A DNA stretch of 44,076 bases from Oscillospiraceae bacterium (GTDB lineage: Bacteria > Bacillota_A > Clostridia > Oscillospirales > Oscillospiraceae). This document shows positions 3,820-41,267 of this stretch, piece after piece; positions within the stretch are counted from its first letter, which is position 1; the number at the start of each line of letters is the position of its first letter. A program made the translations under genes and the position numbers. Under the pieces are notes generated by a model. The model saw only the letters and a list, made by a program, of their open reading frames with translations, ran no database searches and was not told the origin of the DNA. The DNA is taken from contig JAETOP010000018.1 of NCBI GenBank assembly GCA_021771675.1, positions 1-44,076 on the forward strand. Direction: 5' to 3'.

Positions 3820-3830
3820 GTATATGGCAT

Positions 3831-4065
3831 TGGGGTGAAGCGCCCTGCGCTTCAGTCATTAATCTGCGAGTTTGCAACAAAAGCGTTACCGGGCTGAGTT
3901 CGGGGGTGACGATTCTCTCCCAACCCCGTGCGCATTGGGGTGAAGCGCCTTGGGCTTCGGTCATCAATCTGCGTGCTCGCAGCAAAAGCGTCACCGGGCT
4001 GAGTTCGGGGGTGACGATTCTCTCCCAACCCCGTGCGCATTGGGGTGAAGCGCCCTGCGCTTCAT
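3831..4065. repeat. Tandem 105-bp intergenic repeat, 2.2 copies
   Basis: Units begin at 3831, 3936 and 4041 with TGGGGTGAAGCGCC; the first two are 105 bp long and the third is cut off at the upp stop codon. Each starts with a hairpin of the form GAAGCGC-CCT-GCGCTTC (altered in unit 2) and ends with CCAACCCCGTGCGCAT. Related sequence occurs at 115-150. The block separates two convergent transcripts. No protein is supported, although one frame happens to stay open through it. Confidence 0.8.
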
Positions 4066-5837: not shown

Positions 5838-5848
5838 GTTTTCCTCCG

Positions 5849-5942
5849 TAGGGCGGGGTCATGACCCCGTCGTTGGGTTCCAATTTTTGAGTACTTTCGA
5901 TGAATGGGACATGTTTTAACTGCTGCCTGATGGGCGGGGTCA
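5849..5942. repeat. GGGGTCATGACCCC palindromic repeat with partial second copy
   Basis: A 16-bp perfect palindrome, CGGGGTCATGACCCCG (5854-5869), recurs as longer versions at 11769-11788 and 22631-22662. A half copy, GGGCGGGGTCAAGCG, lies at 5932-5946. It fills the prfA-tsaE gap on the minus-strand transcript, so it would form an RNA hairpin there. No gene is present. Confidence 0.65.
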
Positions 5943-11742: not shown

Positions 11743-12130
11743 AAATTGTAATTTAACGAGGTGCGTAGGGCGGGGTCATGACCCCGCCGCCCCACTGCCA
11801 TCTTATGCCGTGCTCCGTTGGTTTTCCTGGTGCGGGAGCACCCCAAAGGCTCCCCTGTGTAAGGGGAGCTGTCAGCGAAGCTGACTGAGGGACTGTACAG
11901 CAGGCACTGAAATAATTGTACAGTCCAATGTGGAAAGATACGATCCAATTTTCCACCTTTTTCCATAATAGCAAGGGTACTGAAACAAAGGGATACAGTA
12001 GACGAACACTTCCGGTATTCGCCCAACATGGTGCAAATGTAGGATATTCTACTGCACAGTCCCTCAGTCACGGCTTCGCCGTGCCAGCTCCCTTTACACA
12101 AGGGAGCCTTTGGGCGCTAAATTACAATTT
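11743..12130. repeat. MITE-like nested inverted-repeat element
   Basis: Outer perfect 13-bp arms, AAATTGTAATTTA (11743-11755) and its complement (12118-12130), enclose a second inverted pair of about 60 bp (11843-11901 and 12052-12113). Those inner arms carry CCAAAGGCTCCC and CTGAGGGACTGT. A CATGA-centred palindrome, GGCGGGGTCATGACCCCGCC, lies at 11769-11788. The interior has no credible gene. The element can be drawn as one long hairpin of about 388 bp. The inner-arm family also appears at position 1. It is probably a non-autonomous or passively spread repeat; no transposase is visible. Confidence 0.75.
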
Positions 12131-12147
12131 TAATTCCTCATTCCTAA

Positions 12148-12308
12148 GGAAACTCTGAATTAATCGTCTACGGCTGAGCAGCGGATCTTTTGCCCCATCT
12201 GTGCAGTTCTAAAACCGGGAAATACATACAGTATTCCTCCGGTTTTAGAACTTTCAGCTGTGACAAAATCTCTCGCTGTCAGCTCTTGCCGATTTAATCA
12301 GAGCTTCC
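12148..12308. repeat. 161-bp structured element, copy 1
   Basis: An imperfect palindrome spans the whole element. Outer arms are GGAAACTCTGA...ATCG and CGATTTAATCAGAGCTTCC. A middle stem pairs TTTTGCCCCA with TGTGACAAAA. The apical stem is a perfect 13 bp (12206-12218 with 12239-12251). Copy 2 at 41072-41232 has the same length and connecting sequence but different stem bases that remain paired. It lies between the repeat element above and larE. I do not recognise the family. Confidence 0.75.
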
Positions 12309-12360
12309 CTAATTTTTAACTCCCAACACGCTTCCCCCGGTTCTTCCGGGATTGGTAAAA

Positions 12361-22624: not shown

Positions 22625-22687
22625 AAATTGGCGTTTGGCGGGGTCATGACCCCGCCAAACGCAATCACCCCGCCAAACACCAATTTT
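22625..22687. repeat. Triple-arm CATGA palindromic repeat
   Basis: A perfect 32-bp palindrome (22631-22662) is centred on GGGGTCATGACCCC. A third arm at 22667-22687, ACCCCGCCAAACACCAATTTT, can replace the middle arm in pairing with the left arm at 22625-22644. The result is two mutually exclusive hairpins in the leader of the FTR-like gene. Shorter relatives are at 5854-5869 and 11769-11788. Confidence 0.75.
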
Positions 22688-33264: not shown

Positions 33265-33270
33265 GAAATT

Positions 33271-33354
33271 ACCTTGTACCACAACGAGGGAACGTAGGTT
33301 ACTACGATAAGGTATTACACCTCGGAGCTCTACCCCGGCTTTTCAGCCGGGGTA
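33271..33354 (+). ncRNA. tracrRNA of the type II-C system
   Basis: The anti-repeat (33277-33308) can pair with nucleotides 1-32 of the minus-strand CRISPR repeat, about 29 of 32 positions counting G-U pairs, with one 2-by-2 internal loop. ACTACGATAAGG just after the duplex resembles the CTACAATAAGG of Neisseria tracrRNA. A 9-10-bp hairpin, TACCCCGGC / GCCGGGGTA (33331-33354), ends it. No T-run follows, so some transcripts may continue into cas9. The anti-repeat fixes crRNA polarity as minus strand. Confidence 0.88.
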
Positions 33355-33380: not shown

Positions 33381-36300
33381 ATGCAGACATTTCACTATAC
33401 ACTGGGTCTGGACATCGGCATTGCTTCTGTCGGATGGGCCGTGCTCCAGAATGATTCAGATGGAGAACCGATTAAAATTCAAAACCTGGGCGTTCGCATC
33501 TTTGAAAAGGCCGAACATCCCAAAACCGGAGAAAGTCTGGCTGCACCACGCCGGGAAGCACGGAGCGCCCGGCGGAGGCTGCACAGGCACCGCCACCGCT
33601 TGCAGCGGATACGCTGGCTGCTGGAGAAGCAGGGAATCATGCCCGAGCAGGATATTCTGGAGCTGTACCAGCGGGGCGCTTTCTCTATTTCTCCCTATGA
33701 ACTGCGGTGCGAAGCTCTGGAGCGCCCCCTTTCCAAGGAGGAAGCTGTGCGGGTTTTGATTCACCTGGCCCAGCGCCGGGGCTATCAGTCAAACAGCACC
33801 GCAGAGGCTGCCAAGGAGGAGCAAGAAACTGGGAAAATCAAAGCAGCCATCACAGAAAACAGAAGGATTATGGACGAAAAGGGCTACCGCACCGTTGGCG
33901 AAATGCTCTGGAAGGATGAGCGGTGCTGGCAGAAAAACCCTGACGGAACCAAGTTCCATCAGCCTCGAAACAAAGCCGACAGCTACCGGTTTACCGTGAG
34001 GCGGTCGGATATTGTGGAGGAAGTCCATTCAATCTTCCGCAGGCAGCGGGAGCTGGGCGTAACATGGATGACTGAGGAGCTAGAGGAAGCATATCTTTCC
34101 ATTCTGGAAAGCCAGCGCAGTTTTGACGAAGGGCCCGGCGGCGACAGCGTTTACAAGGTGGATTTTAATAAAAGAATCGGCATATGCCCCTTTGAAAAGT
34201 CAGAGCACAGAGCCGCCAAAGCCACCTACACCTTTGAATATTTTAAGCTCTTACAGGACATTAACCACATTCGTCTGGTGGAATCCGGCCAGCCATCCCG
34301 GCCCCTCTGCCCAGATCAGCGGGAGGCCCTGCGCCGTCTGGCCTTCCGTTCAGCCTCTGTGAGCTTCCAGCAGATGCGCAAGGAACTGAACCTTGCCGAT
34401 ACAGTCACCTTTAACTGTCTCTACTACGGCGAGGACGGCGTGGCAAAAGCCGAAAAGCGGAAGTGGCCGCAGATGCAGTCCTATCACAAAATTCGACTTG
34501 CACTGGATAAGGTTGCAAAGGATGCTATTTTGACCCTTTCCACGGCACAACTGGATGAAATCGGCAGAATACTGACCCTGTATAAAAATGACGAAAGACG
34601 TCTTCAGGCACTTCACTCTGCTGGAATCCCGGAAGTGTACCACGCTTCCCTCCTTCCCCTCTCTTTCTCCAAATTTGGGAAGCTGTCTCTTACAGCCATG
34701 AAGAAGCTGATTCCGTTTTTGGAACAGGGCAAACGGTATGACGAAGCATGTGCGGAAGCTGGCATTGTCCGCAGAGACACATCCTCTGTCCAGAAGGGAG
34801 CTAAGCTGTCCATTGATGATTTAGAAGAAATCACAAATCCCGTTGTCCGGCGGGCTGTTTCTCAGACAATTAAAGTTATCAATGCCGTGGTGCGTACTTA
34901 CGGTACGCCGGATGCGGTTCACATTGAACTAGCCAGAGAGATGAGCCGGAGCTTCGCTGACCGGCAGAAGCTTCAAAAACGACAGGATGAGAACCGGAAG
35001 CAGAACGAAAGGCTCAAAGAGCAAATCATGGAGGTCAAGCATTCCACTGCCAGCGGTCTGGATATTGTCAAATTCAAATTGTTCCAGGAGCAGGACGGCA
35101 TCTGCATGTATTCCGGAAAGAATCTGGATATTTCCCGCCTGTATGAACCGGGTTACGTAGATGTAGACCACATTATCCCCTATAGCCGCTGCTTTGATGA
35201 CAGCTACCAAAACAAGGTTCTGGTTCTGGCAAGCGAGAACCGGCAAAAGGGGAATCGGCTGCCCTATGAATATTTCGGCCAGGATGCCCAGCGCTGGCAT
35301 GACTTTGAAGTGCAGGTGGAGACTAAAATTCGCAATTACCGCAAGCGGCAAAAGCTGTTGAAGCGCCAGCTTACCGAGGAAGAATCCCAGACCTTTACCG
35401 CACGGAACTTGCAGGACACCCAGTACATTACCACCGCCCTTTTCCACCTGATAAAGGATCACTTGGAATTCACCCAGGTTCGACCCGCCAGCCGGCAGGT
35501 GCAGGCTGTGAACGGCGCTATTACCGCTATGCTTCGGGGCCGCTGGGGTATCCAGAAAATTCGGGAGGATGGAGATTTGCACCACTGTTTGGATGCGGCA
35601 GTGGTGGCCTGTACCAGTCCCGGAATGATTCAGCGGCTGACTGCGTACAACAAATACCGGGAAAGTCCGATTAACGGACAGTACCTGGACCATTCCACCG
35701 GAGAGTTGCTCACCAAAAAGGAATACGATGAGAAATACGCCCCCAAATTCCCCGAGCCATGGCCCAGGTTCCGGCAGGAGCTGGAAGCACGGATGGAGCC
35801 TGTAGATCCCAGGGGGGCCATTGACCGCTTAAAGCTCAGCACCTACAACAGCGATGAGCCAATCAAGCCCATCTTCGTCTCCCGGATGCCGAACCACAAG
35901 GTCACGGGAGCGGCTCATGCAGAAACCATTCGCAGCAGTGCTCTGGGCGATGGTTATACCGTTTCCAAGGTGCCTCTAACAAGGCTAAATCTGGATAAAA
36001 ACGGGGAGATTCCGGATTATTATAATCCCGCCAGTGACCGCTTCCTCTATGACGCCCTGGTGGAAAGGCTGAAAGCCTTCGGCGGAAAAGGAGAACAGGC
36101 CTTTGCGGAGCCCTTCTATAAGCCGAAGGCAGACGGAACACCGGGACCTTTGGTTAAAAAAGTAAAGGTATACGATAAATCGACCCTGAATCTTTCCGTT
36201 AGAAACGGCGTTGCGGATAACGGCGGCATGGTTCGTGTCGATGTATTTTATGTACCGGGGGATGGCTATTATTTAGTCCCGATTTATGTGGCGGACACAC

Positions 36301-36683
36301 AGAAGGCTGTGCTGCCAAACTGTGCGGTTGTGGCCCACAAGAAGTACGCTCTATGGAAAGAAATGGATGATTCCGATTTCCTGTTCTCCCTCTATCCCGG
36401 AGATTTGATTCGCATCCAAAGCAAAAAAGGAATCACATTGAACATCTCCAAAGGAGGAACGGGAGAAGCGAAGATACTTCGTAAAGATGCACTGTTTTAC
36501 TATTGTGGAACAGACATCGGTTCGGGAAACATTTCTATAGAGACCCATGACCGGCAGTACTCCCAGCCCGGCCTGGGGTTCAAAACGCTGCTTTTGGTAG
36601 AAAAATATCAGGTGGATGTTCTTGGAAATTACTATAAAGTCACTTCACCTGAAAAACGGATGCCGTTCTCCAAGGAGGGCTAA
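33381..36683 (+). CDS. cas9: Cas9 endonuclease, type II-C
   Basis: This 1100-residue Cas9 is compact, as in II-C. RuvC-I has Asp11 in LGLDIGIASVGWAV. The Arg-rich bridge helix is at about 57-80. RuvC-II has Glu516 (VHIELARE). The HNH domain (about 520-650) has Asp596-His597 in VDVDHIIPYS and Asn620. RuvC-III has His735 and Asp738 in HHCLDAAVVA. A C-terminal PAM-interacting region follows. All nuclease residues are intact, so the protein should cut both strands under crRNA:tracrRNA guidance. GAGGAG lies five bases before the ATG. cas1 starts two bases after its stop. The PAM cannot be told from sequence alone. Confidence 0.97.
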   Translation: MQTFHYTLGLDIGIASVGWAVLQNDSDGEPIKIQNLGVRIFEKAEHPKTGESLAAPRREARSARRRLHRHRHRLQRIRWLLEKQGIMPEQDILELYQRGAFSISPYELRCEALERPLSKEEAVRVLIHLAQRRGYQSNSTAEAAKEEQETGKIKAAITENRRIMDEKGYRTVGEMLWKDERCWQKNPDGTKFHQPRNKADSYRFTVRRSDIVEEVHSIFRRQRELGVTWMTEELEEAYLSILESQRSFDEGPGGDSVYKVDFNKRIGICPFEKSEHRAAKATYTFEYFKLLQDINHIRLVESGQPSRPLCPDQREALRRLAFRSASVSFQQMRKELNLADTVTFNCLYYGEDGVAKAEKRKWPQMQSYHKIRLALDKVAKDAILTLSTAQLDEIGRILTLYKNDERRLQALHSAGIPEVYHASLLPLSFSKFGKLSLTAMKKLIPFLEQGKRYDEACAEAGIVRRDTSSVQKGAKLSIDDLEEITNPVVRRAVSQTIKVINAVVRTYGTPDAVHIELAREMSRSFADRQKLQKRQDENRKQNERLKEQIMEVKHSTASGLDIVKFKLFQEQDGICMYSGKNLDISRLYEPGYVDVDHIIPYSRCFDDSYQNKVLVLASENRQKGNRLPYEYFGQDAQRWHDFEVQVETKIRNYRKRQKLLKRQLTEEESQTFTARNLQDTQYITTALFHLIKDHLEFTQVRPASRQVQAVNGAITAMLRGRWGIQKIREDGDLHHCLDAAVVACTSPGMIQRLTAYNKYRESPINGQYLDHSTGELLTKKEYDEKYAPKFPEPWPRFRQELEARMEPVDPRGAIDRLKLSTYNSDEPIKPIFVSRMPNHKVTGAAHAETIRSSALGDGYTVSKVPLTRLNLDKNGEIPDYYNPASDRFLYDALVERLKAFGGKGEQAFAEPFYKPKADGTPGPLVKKVKVYDKSTLNLSVRNGVADNGGMVRVDVFYVPGDGYYLVPIYVADTQKAVLPNCAVVAHKKYALWKEMDDSDFLFSLYPGDLIRIQSKKGITLNISKGGTGEAKILRKDALFYYCGTDIGSGNISIETHDRQYSQPGLGFKTLLLVEKYQVDVLGNYYKVTSPEKRMPFSKEG

Positions 36684-36685
36684 CA

Positions 36686-37585
36686 ATGGAATACCGAAAT
36701 ATCTTCCTGACGACTCCCGCCCGTCTTAGTGTACAGCGGGGGCAACTGGTGATCGAGCAGACAGAAAAGCGCACTGTGCCCCTGGAGGATATTTCAGCCC
36801 TGCTGATCGAATCCCCCCAGGTGACGCTGACGGCCAGAGCTGTCAGCTCCCTGGCCGTCAGCGGTGTGACGGTATTCTTCTGTGATGAGAAGCATCTGCC
36901 CTGCTGCCAGATTCTCCCCACAAATCAATTCTGCCGCCAGCGGAAACTGCTCACAGCCCAGTATGAGCTGGGAAAACCGCTGCAAAAACAGCTGTGGCAG
37001 CAAATTATCATCCGAAAAATAGAAAACCAGGCAAAATGCCTGGTTCTGGCCGGGAAGGAGGGGGCTCAAGAGCTGCGCCAAATGGCGGGCCGGGTGCTCT
37101 CCGGAGACAGTGACAACCGGGAGGCTGTAGCCGCCGCCTTCTACTTCCCTGCCCTCTTTGGCGAAGCCTTTTCGAGAGGGGCGGAAGATTCCAGGAATGC
37201 GGCTCTGAACTATGGCTATGCCATCCTGCGGGGCTGCATTGCCCGCAACCTGGTAATCCACGGACTGGAGCCCTGCATCGGTCTGCACCACCGGAGTGAA
37301 TTGAATAACTTCAATCTGGCTGATGACCTGATCGAGCCCTACCGACCGATTGTTGACCTTTTCGTTGCCACCCATTTCTCGGAGGATACGGAAGTCCTGA
37401 CCCCGGATCAAAAGGTAATGTTGTTTAATTTGACCAATTTCCTGATCAAGCAAGCTGGAAAACAGTATCGGATTTTTTCAGCCATCGGCCGGAGCTGTGC
37501 GTCTTTGGCAAACTGCATCTGCGAAAAGTCTCAAAAGCTGGAGCTCCCGGAACTGATGCCCCTGGAACAGCATCGGTATGAGTAG
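36686..37585 (+). CDS. cas1: Cas1 integrase
   Basis: This 299-residue type II Cas1 joins Cas2 to insert new spacers. The catalytic residues by spacing are Glu146 (NREAVAAAFYF), His202 (GLHHRSELN) and Glu217 (DLIEPYRP). The N-terminal beta domain and helical C-terminal domain are complete. CAAGGAGGG lies in the end of cas9 just before its ATG. Confidence 0.96.
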   Translation: MEYRNIFLTTPARLSVQRGQLVIEQTEKRTVPLEDISALLIESPQVTLTARAVSSLAVSGVTVFFCDEKHLPCCQILPTNQFCRQRKLLTAQYELGKPLQKQLWQQIIIRKIENQAKCLVLAGKEGAQELRQMAGRVLSGDSDNREAVAAAFYFPALFGEAFSRGAEDSRNAALNYGYAILRGCIARNLVIHGLEPCIGLHHRSELNNFNLADDLIEPYRPIVDLFVATHFSEDTEVLTPDQKVMLFNLTNFLIKQAGKQYRIFSAIGRSCASLANCICEKSQKLELPELMPLEQHRYE

Positions 37586-37898
37586 GCTTATGCGAATCCT
37601 GGTGATGTTTGATCTTCCGGTCACAACGAAACAGCAGCGCCGGAAGGCTACTCAGTTTCGGAATTTTCTGCTGAGCGATGGCTACCACATGGTGCAGTTC
37701 TCCGTCTATGCACGGGTATGCGCCGGACGGGACAGTGTAGAAGCCCACCAGAAGCGGCTTCGGCGGGCGCTGCCGCCGGAAGGCTCCGTGCGGATGCTGG
37801 TCATTACAGAAAAGCAGTACAACGCCATTGAACTCCTGGTCGGCCCACCGTCCCCCTGTGATTCCCCTCAGGAATTTGAACAGCTTATGATTTTTTAG
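37578..37898 (+). CDS. cas2: Cas2 adaptation protein
   Basis: This 106-residue ferredoxin-fold protein has the Cas2 start RILVMFDLPV with Asp12, and the basic TTKQQRRKATQFRNFLLSDGYHMVQFSVYAR region. The ATG at 37578 overlaps the end of cas1; the ATG at 37590 is an alternative start. No csn2 or cas4 follows, which places the locus in subtype II-C. Confidence 0.94.
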   Translation: MSRLMRILVMFDLPVTTKQQRRKATQFRNFLLSDGYHMVQFSVYARVCAGRDSVEAHQKRLRRALPPEGSVRMLVITEKQYNAIELLVGPPSPCDSPQEFEQLMIF

Positions 37899-37899
37899 G

Positions 37900-37937
37900 A
37901 AAAAACGGAGAAGGATTCTCAACGAAAATCCTTCTCC
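37900..37937 (-). terminator. Terminator of the minus-strand CRISPR transcript
   Basis: On the minus strand GGAGAAGGATT (37927-37937) pairs with AATCCTTCTCC (37907-37917), followed by GTTTTTT (T6 at 37900-37905). On the plus strand the same stem ends the cas operon, but with a weaker T-rich tail. A second minus-strand hairpin, GGAGGA/TCCTCC (37984-38000) followed by TTTT, lies between it and the array. Confidence 0.8.
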
Positions 37938-38013
37938 ATTTCCTTTGCTTTCCCGGAGTTTTCTCACAAAATAAGCGGGAAAAGGAGGAATTTCTCCTCC
38001 TGGTTTTCAGCCT

Positions 38014-39145
38014 ATTATACCACAACGAGAGAAAATAGGGAACTACGACACGGGTCCACTGAGGATGTGCGGAGCCATTATTATACCACAACGAGAGAAA
38101 ATAGGGAACTACGACCCAGACCGACATCACAGCCACCAGCACCAAATTATACCACAACGAGAGAAAATAGGGAACTACGACTGATTGTGTCAACCTCATC
38201 AAAGGCGTCCTATTATACCACAACGAGAGAAAATAGGGAACTACGACGGTATGGCTGGCATGGTTCGTTGCGTTCGGATTATACCACAACGAGAGAAAAT
38301 AGGGAACTACGACCCCAAACGCCGCTCACGATATTTTTGCCTAATTATACCACAACGAGAGAAAATAGGGAACTACGACAAGTCGCTGTCGGCGAAGTGA
38401 AGTTGAACAATTATACCACAACGAGAGAAAATAGGGAACTACGACACAAATGGAAAGATGCGGCACGGTTGAAAAATTATACCACAACGAGAGAAAATAG
38501 GGAACTACGACCAAGTGCCTGATCGCCCACGCCACCAGCGCATTATACCACAACGAGAGAAAATAGGGAACTACGACTGCAAGGATTTTCTTTTGTTTCG
38601 CACTAATATTATACCACAACGAGAGAAAATAGGGAACTACGACTCACAAGAGCAACTATTCGCAACCTTGCAAATTATACCACAACGAGAGAAAATAGGG
38701 AACTACGACTAGCGGTGTGGGAATCGAGATGGAGATCATATTATACCACAACGAGAGAAAATAGGGAACTACGACCCACGGCGCTGACCACTGTCATCCT
38801 GAACGATTATACCACAACGAGAGAAAATAGGGAACTACGACTGGGTTCGCGGCGTCGGCGGCATCGGTGCTATTATACCACAACGAGAGAAAATAGGGAA
38901 CTACGACATCAGGCACTTGTATACGTATCCCTCATAGATTATACCACAACGAGAGAAAATAGGGAACTACGACCGCAAGCTATGTATACACAGGTGCCCG
39001 CGTATTATACCACAACGAGAGAAAATAGGGAACTACGACCAACGCCACCGGCAAGACCAGCGTCTACGAATTATACCACAACGAGAGAAAATAGGGAACT
39101 ACGACAACTATTGCGGCAACGACAATCTGATTCAAATTATACCAC
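38014..39145 (-). promoter_or_regulatory. Extended -10 promoters embedded in every repeat
   Basis: Each repeat ends on the minus strand in TGGTATAAT, a perfect extended -10 (TG-N-TATAAT). Initiation about seven bases downstream would fall inside each spacer and leave roughly 23-24 nt of guide. The -35 region (TTCCCT) is poor, but extended -10 promoters tolerate this. Individual -10 hexamers lie at the first six plus-strand bases of each repeat (38014-38019, then every 66). Confidence 0.75.
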
Positions 39146-39171
39146 AACGAGAGAAAATAGGAAATAAAAAT
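38014..39171 (-). CRISPR. CRISPR array, 18 repeats and 17 spacers
   Basis: Repeats of 36 bp start at 38014 and every 66 bases to 39136, with spacers of exactly 30 bp. The first 17 repeats are identical in plus-strand order; the last (39136-39171) keeps its first 26 bases and decays after. On the minus strand the repeat begins GTCGTAGTTCCC and ends GTGGTATAAT, like Neisseria II-C repeats. Anti-repeat and terminator evidence show minus-strand reading. The decayed repeat marks the old end, so new spacers probably enter next to cas2. All 17 spacers differ from each other. Confidence 0.98.
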
Positions 39172-39308
39172 ACGCAAAAAGCACAGCTTGAAAGTCTGAA
39201 CGATGATAAAATCCCTGCACTTATACGGTTGAACCGCCGTGTATGGAACGGTATGCATGGTGGCTAGGGAGGCCGGAGCTTACCTACTCAGTTGGCACCT
39301 TAGAGACA
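39172..39308. other. Spacer region between array and HAD gene
   Basis: No gene or clear promoter is seen. On the minus strand this is upstream of the array's oldest spacer and downstream of the HAD gene. No strong intrinsic terminator was found for the HAD transcript, so it may read into the array. Confidence 0.4.
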
Positions 39309-41060: not shown

Positions 41061-41071
41061 CGCCTCCTGAT

Positions 41072-41232
41072 GGAAGCGATGAATCAATCGTCTGCGGCTG
41101 AGCAGCAGACCTTTTGCCCCATCTGTGCAGTTTGAAAAGTGGGAAATACACAGAATATTCCCCCACTTTTCAAACTTTCATCTGGGACAAAAACGCTTAC
41201 TGCCAGCTCTTGCCGATTTGATTATCGCTTCC
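41072..41232. repeat. 161-bp structured element, copy 2
   Basis: Same length and layout as the copy at 12148-12308. Outer arms GGAAGCGATGAATCAATCG and CGATTTGATTATCGCTTCC pair. The middle stem pairs TTTTGCCCCA with TGGGACAAAA. The apical stem is a perfect 14 bp (41130-41143 with 41162-41175). Four apical base pairs differ from copy 1, each changed on both sides. It fills the gap between the mnmG stop and the M14 gene's SD. Confidence 0.78.
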
Positions 41233-41267
41233 TAATAGAATATGCGCTGAAATTGGAAAAGGTGCCC

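Follow-up and report, generated by a model that had tools for sequence, protein, structure and literature searches.

A MITE with IS5-family ends that carries an undescribed, strand-specific structured core

MITEs are generally regarded as empty shells of insertion sequences. REPINs are composed of two inverted hairpins and are associated with a RAYT (Y1) transposase. Among the described systems closest to the element analysed here, Correia or NEMIS is a Neisseria MITE of about 107-155 bp that yields a stem-loop transcript, and transcripts that contain Correia elements are reported to be cleaved by RNase III (PMC2229807 and PMC10969869). The portion of PMC11109978 that deals with the MRSC-65-2 motif describes a single long stem with strong covariation and a conserved UYCCGG repeat, often present in dozens of copies per genome, and judges it to be most like a selfish genetic element, possibly in DNA form.

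The 44,076-nt stretch of DNA that was analysed (hereafter, the window) contains two copies of a 161-bp sequence, at 12148-12308 (copy 1) and 41072-41232 (copy 2), which are 81% identical and constitute the sole family of that length among the window repeats listed. An earlier note on this DNA had reported the pair and proposed that changes in its stems were compensatory, and both observations hold. The apical left arms read GTTCTAAAACCGG and GTTTGAAAAGTGG, with all four differing positions matched by changes in the right arms, and the outer arms, which also differ between copies, retain pairing in both. On the strand considered in that note, the predicted folds reach -68.2 kcal/mol (z -9.6) for copy 1 and -67.0 kcal/mol (z -8.5) for copy 2, and none of 200 dinucleotide shuffles folded as well for either. 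The reverse complements fold lower still, at -83.6 and -83.5 kcal/mol respectively, and both copies are assigned here to the minus strand as the better-folding one.

Copy 1 is bordered by a perfect 4-bp duplication, with CTAA at 12144-12147 and again at 12309-12312. Its left terminal repeat (12148-12166, plus strand) belongs to the type designated A below and resembles the ends of the IS5-family loci L173 and L165, and its right terminal repeat occupies 12290-12308 on the minus strand. Enclosed by these ends are the conserved core hairpin (12175-12281, minus strand), which scores 109 bits with a covariance model of the core (R2) whose training set includes it, and the apical motif GAAATACATACAGTATTCC (12219-12237, plus strand). 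Copy 2 is flanked by TGAT (41068-41071) and TAAT (41233-41236), an imperfect duplication that matches at three of four positions. Its core hairpin (41099-41205, minus strand) scores 99.7 bits with the same model, being also a training-set member, and its apical motif GAAATACACAGAATATTCC (41143-41161, plus strand) lies one base away from the pattern. Copy 1 is flanked by two genes, one with a TatD domain and one with a QueC domain, and runs antisense to each. Copy 2 is sense to both of its neighbours, mnmG and an M14-peptidase gene, which are both encoded on the minus strand, and the M14-peptidase open reading frame as listed (TTG start at 41087) overlaps the element by 16 bp.

Several other features were recorded in the window. 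Beside copy 1, positions 11836-12115 contain inverted repeats around GGCTCCCCTGTGTAA and ACACAAGGGAGCC, some 200 bp apart, which may represent another small mobile element. A tandem repeat of 105 bp occupies 3827-4064, with a related stretch at 122-149, and a 26-bp repeat with the palindrome CGGGGTCATGACCCCG is present in three copies (5847-5872, 11764-11789 and 22632-22657). A type II-like CRISPR-Cas locus (33381-39173) encodes Cas9 (HNH_4, RuvC), Cas1 and Cas2 and includes an array with a period of 66 bp; its tracrRNA anti-repeat may correspond to the diverged repeat found at 33265-33307.

Scanning the genome collection for one exact 19-mer returned five matches, two of which are true copies of the element, in an uncultured Clostridia MAG (locus L019, genome G001) and an Eubacteriales MAG (locus L020, genome G002). 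BLASTN identified 17 matches in G001 and 14 in G002, and 12 of the 13 full-length ones measure 161 bp. Within the family of G002, matches were detected in 14 of 150 sampled genomes (E <= 1e-6, G002 counted). A covariance model built from 15 copies (R1) returned matches in all 15 genomes previously known to be positive, at 1 to 120 per genome, in counts in which a single palindromic place can enter twice, once per strand. A search with the core model R2 across the class of G002 (391 sampled genomes, E <= 1e-5, strict filters, at most ten candidates scored per genome) was positive in 56, and one across the phylum (398 sampled genomes, E <= 1e-6) in 6, with G002 counted in both. A covariance-model search of related genomes had been proposed in the earlier note; the family is multicopy. 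In genome G099 many model matches fall at the outermost bases of contigs, and since contigs there often start or end inside the element, its copies cannot be counted well; the element seems to limit the assembly of this genome.

BLASTN searches with copy 2 against phage and plasmid sequences returned no match, and neither did searches with L281 against phages or with L288 and L325 against plasmids. In view of these searches, a phage or plasmid origin was rejected. A match at 78.5%, covering 42% of the L288 query, was present in MT838926.1, an unannotated phage scaffold obtained from human faeces. Pattern scans of viral sequences yielded 0, 16, 4 and 3 stretches; the 16 look like chance matches, and two of the four (L281 and L283) and all three of the last set look like real cores.

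Two main types of ends were found among the copies, A (GGAAACTCTGAATAAATCG) and B (GGCATCACCGCACAATTGTG). Of 93 flanked copies, 47 lie between perfect 4-bp direct repeats, against a mean of 5.6 and a maximum of 14 in shuffles, and for each of the other lengths (2 to 9) the longest flanking repeat was of that length in only 0 to 3 of 94 copies. The exact duplication is present in 32 of 67 copies with type A ends, 15 of 23 with type B ends and none of three with other ends, and 30 of the 47 duplications have the form YTAR, which is the target duplication rule of IS5. The element is a multicopy MITE family with a 4-bp target-site duplication, and its mobility is well supported.

The consensus left end of type A coincides at 18 of 19 bases with L173 and at 15 of 19 with L165, which has an intact transposase, and the consensus of type B coincides at 17 of 20 bases with L152, also with an intact transposase. 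L152 is a 1150-bp IS5-family element with B ends and CTAA on each side. L165 spans 1191 bp, with A ends, TTAG on each side and an open frame without stops, and the asymmetry between its left (CTGAATAAA) and right (CTGATTTAAT) ends resembles that of the MITE. Scores with the NF033581 model were 331 bits for L152, 287 for L165, 295 for L164 and 323 for L158 (cut-off 140). Related transposases were detected in 22 of 394 genomes of the order (E <= 1e-20), and a PF05598 search was positive in only 3 of 15 MITE-bearing genomes, which weighs against mobilisation of the MITEs by such transposases. A search for ends around 35 transposase loci, allowing up to five mismatches in 16 and up to one in the duplication, located B ends around L152/L156 (one place), L157, L158, L161/L181 (one place) and L167, and A ends around L164, L165, L168 and L173; no convincing pair was found around the remaining loci of the 35. 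Because near-identical duplications (no more than one mismatch) were a requirement of this search, the duplications flanking the insertion sequences are not independent evidence, and four of the eight end pairs compared come from loci with a broken or partial transposase (L157, L161, L173 and L168). At the level of sequence, then, the terminal repeats match those of IS5-family elements, and the MITEs are probably moved in trans by the transposases whose ends they match. A YTAR duplication is also known for IS701, but this source of the ends was rejected, given that IS701 transposase exceeded the cut-off in none of 15 genomes, with two weak matches under it.

A core of about 105 nt is common to elements with at least five different terminal repeats, as judged by eye: A, B, GGGCACCTCTAAAAACCC (G082), GGGCTTGTTGACGCG (G488), GGGGACGGCGGC (G323) and others, with A and B being the sole types linked to an insertion sequence. 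In the nine insertion-sequence loci searched with R2, no core match was present at E <= 1e-4. The core is absent from the tested insertion sequences and common to unlike ends. When 394 genomes of the order were scanned for the apical motif GAAATACANNNAGTATTCC, 16 were positive, against one for a reversed control; several matches to the apical pattern (for instance L280, L282, L287 and L300) look like chance. A few core loci have no obvious inverted ends. Class-wide relatives also include inverted core pairs separated by about 12 nt, in L322 (1385-1605), L325 (281-502), L303 (1199-1421) and L327 (1501-1700), and in some of these pairs the outer flanks are alike as well. It is conceivable, at somewhat less than even chances, that the hairpin is a selfish RNA cargo of several unrelated MITE families, independent of the transposase. 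If true, this would be a mobile, strand-specific RNA module captured by its carriers in one bacterial class and selected for aiding the spread of any carrier.

The conservation of pairing in the core was assessed on two alignments. In 36 diverse cores (A5: 35 of the 38 representatives plus copy 1 of the window), covariation reached 0.502, as opposed to 0.170 when shuffled and at most 0.131 when slid. In 76 cores (A7) it reached 0.657, compared with 0.175 for the shuffled and no more than 0.140 for the slid control, a score biased by the fitting of this alignment to the model and by the inclusion of the training set; double-changed cells, which count sequences and not events, numbered 561 in this alignment versus 159 after shuffling. 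The earlier note had suggested an R-scape analysis, and in our own R-scape-style test, which used a tree-aware null of 60 simulated alignments, 12 of 31 pairs were significant; 14 column pairs passed, 12 of them in the structure. On statistical grounds, core pairing in these aligned sequences is conserved through compensation. Rfam 15 scans of the element and of the core, also suggested in that note, returned no family at gathering score. The best sub-threshold match was to a miRNA family (E 9e-5, 32.6 bits, gathering score 87), and the window copies gave three weak matches, all under gathering score. Candidates such as attC-like sites, SRP, K-turns and ribozymes were addressed through these Rfam scans alone, again with nothing at gathering score. 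The original proposal of an undescribed element under selection for structure is hence borne out by many copies, very strong compensation and no Rfam match. That note had also named a match to a known transposon end or to an Rfam family as an outcome that would speak against it. No Rfam family was found and the ends do match the IS5 family, which makes the element a mobile one with a structured core and not a free-standing RNA gene.

Parsimony reconstruction in six subfamilies, leaving out three pairing-breaking double changes, indicated that changes away from Watson-Crick pairing were compensated in 35 of 53 cases on internal branches and in 41 of 159 cases on terminal ones (p 3e-7). Copies therefore seem free to decay once inserted, whereas the fold is retained in lineages that go on spreading. 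Selection appears to be exerted on the lineage that spreads, although time since change could also account for part of the contrast. The arms of a passive MITE might alternatively be kept complementary by template-switching self-correction, with no selection on structure. The finding that, in 76 of the 212 counted departures from Watson-Crick pairing, both changes fall on a single inferred branch would fit such a process, as would local duplications in L101, L106, L107 and L108. Self-correction should nevertheless erase the non-complementary internal loops that persist class-wide between freely varying stems, and a burst of 17 copies in G099 contains 11 single and no double changes, making this account improbable.

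The strand on which the core folds best differs from the one considered in the earlier note. In all 52 diverse cores examined (64 representatives minus 12 with internal deletions, duplications or poor alignment), the reverse complement folds lower, with a mean of -50.9 versus -35.5 kcal/mol, although shared ancestry means that these are not 52 independent events. The difference of -15.4 compares with -4.7 (sd 3.6) in mononucleotide shuffles, and the minus strand is also lower in 126 of 126 full copies and in 31 of 33 class-wide cores. On the minus strand, class-wide cores present 79 G-U against 8 A-C cells, in sequences selected by a pair-aware model; the counts are 70 to 39 when the pairs are predicted on both strands, and single changes in a first tree of 88 copies (74 to 43) point in the same direction. 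On the strand of the earlier note, G-U cells number 90 and A-C cells 147, and an RNA read from that strand is not favoured. The preference for the opposite strand points to RNA or single-stranded DNA. The structured core likely acts as RNA, as folding models and wobble counts would have it, and the conserved hairpin suggests an undescribed mobile RNA.

Hairpins form on both strands, which counts against an RNA, and the structure could instead matter as DNA, as a palindrome that is extruded or single-stranded during replication or transposition and recognised by a protein, with no RNA involved. Such a role would suit a mobile element with palindromic ends and mixed orientation relative to genes, and decay within subfamilies is nearly strand-symmetric, with 55 A-C and 36 G-U single changes (p 0.06; unpaired control 136:134) and 45 A-C and 33 G-U core cells. 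A two-strand palindrome, however, predicts symmetry, at odds with the consistent advantage of one strand in the diverse and class-wide cores and with the conserved wobble pairs that this strand carries. The bias would also be compatible with single-stranded DNA of that one strand, but overall we consider a DNA role unlikely.

Simple ORF calls around 160 copies placed 30 and 14 in the two tandem orientations (p 0.02, antisense favoured), 25 between convergent and 22 between divergent genes, and 18 inside open reading frames; 51 copies could not be assigned. Among 34 further cores, the majority of them from other genomes, tandem orientations were unbiased (9 and 7). A fixed cis-regulator was rejected, gene orientation being mixed. 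Five Rfam scans detected five riboswitches in 93 scanned loci, among which one locus appears twice: SAM, TPP (two), cobalamin and lysine. In all five cases (L310, L298, L328, L249 and L036) the core lies 64-109 nt downstream of the riboswitch, in antisense, and in two of them viewed in detail a terminator is followed by the core. This enrichment of riboswitches near cores would favour the core being a host regulatory RNA that became repetitive and controls neighbouring genes. The mixed orientation to neighbours argues against such a function, and high copy number with target duplications is the hallmark of a mobile element, so we regard host regulation as very improbable.

The explanation that we favour, and consider reasonably probable as a whole, is that of an IS5-mobilised MITE whose core works as a minus-strand RNA hairpin. 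The MITE would be non-autonomous and mobilised in trans by IS5-family transposases that bind its terminal repeats, with transposition duplicating 4 bp of target (consensus YTAR). The working form would be a minus-strand transcript, presumably produced by read-through from neighbouring genes, and would fold as a long hairpin whose internal loops are fixed. In what would be the least certain step, a host RNA-processing or RNA-binding factor may recognise this hairpin, which would lower the cost of insertion or aid spread, so that lineages keeping the fold propagate and single copies decay; we put this last part forward tentatively, as a doubtful but plausible suggestion. With exchangeable ends and a conserved middle in which pairing exceeds all the controls applied, the element offers a testable case of RNA function at the transposon level, and the covariance model would enable annotators to spot copies that are intergenic and that, in at least one genome, break the assembly.

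Like other IS5-family-derived MITEs, the element has short inverted IS5-like ends and a YTAR-like 4-bp duplication, encodes no gene and is multicopy; it differs in that only the ends are common to the insertion sequence and in that its conserved core also occurs with other ends. The inverted hairpin pairs about 12 nt apart in L322, L325, L303 and L327 recall REPINs, but the hairpins are 105 nt here and the window copies are single. Literature searches returned no recognised description of the element, which may sit among the unnamed motifs of PMC11109978. With Correia/NEMIS it shares the form of a short MITE with a stem-loop, the hairpin being predicted here from the fold. The host there is Neisseria, whereas the genomes that carry copies here are relatives of two clostridial MAGs, and a core common to several end types goes unmentioned in the available sections of PMC2229807 and PMC10969869. 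The nearest system in kind is MRSC-65-2, whose single long covarying stem and multicopy nature, as given in the relevant portion of PMC11109978, are also observed here; the UYCCGG repeat, in contrast, is found on either strand not at all in 42 of the 52 cores, once in eight and twice in two. Set against these systems, the element is a MITE with IS5-family ends that carries an undescribed, strand-specific structured core.
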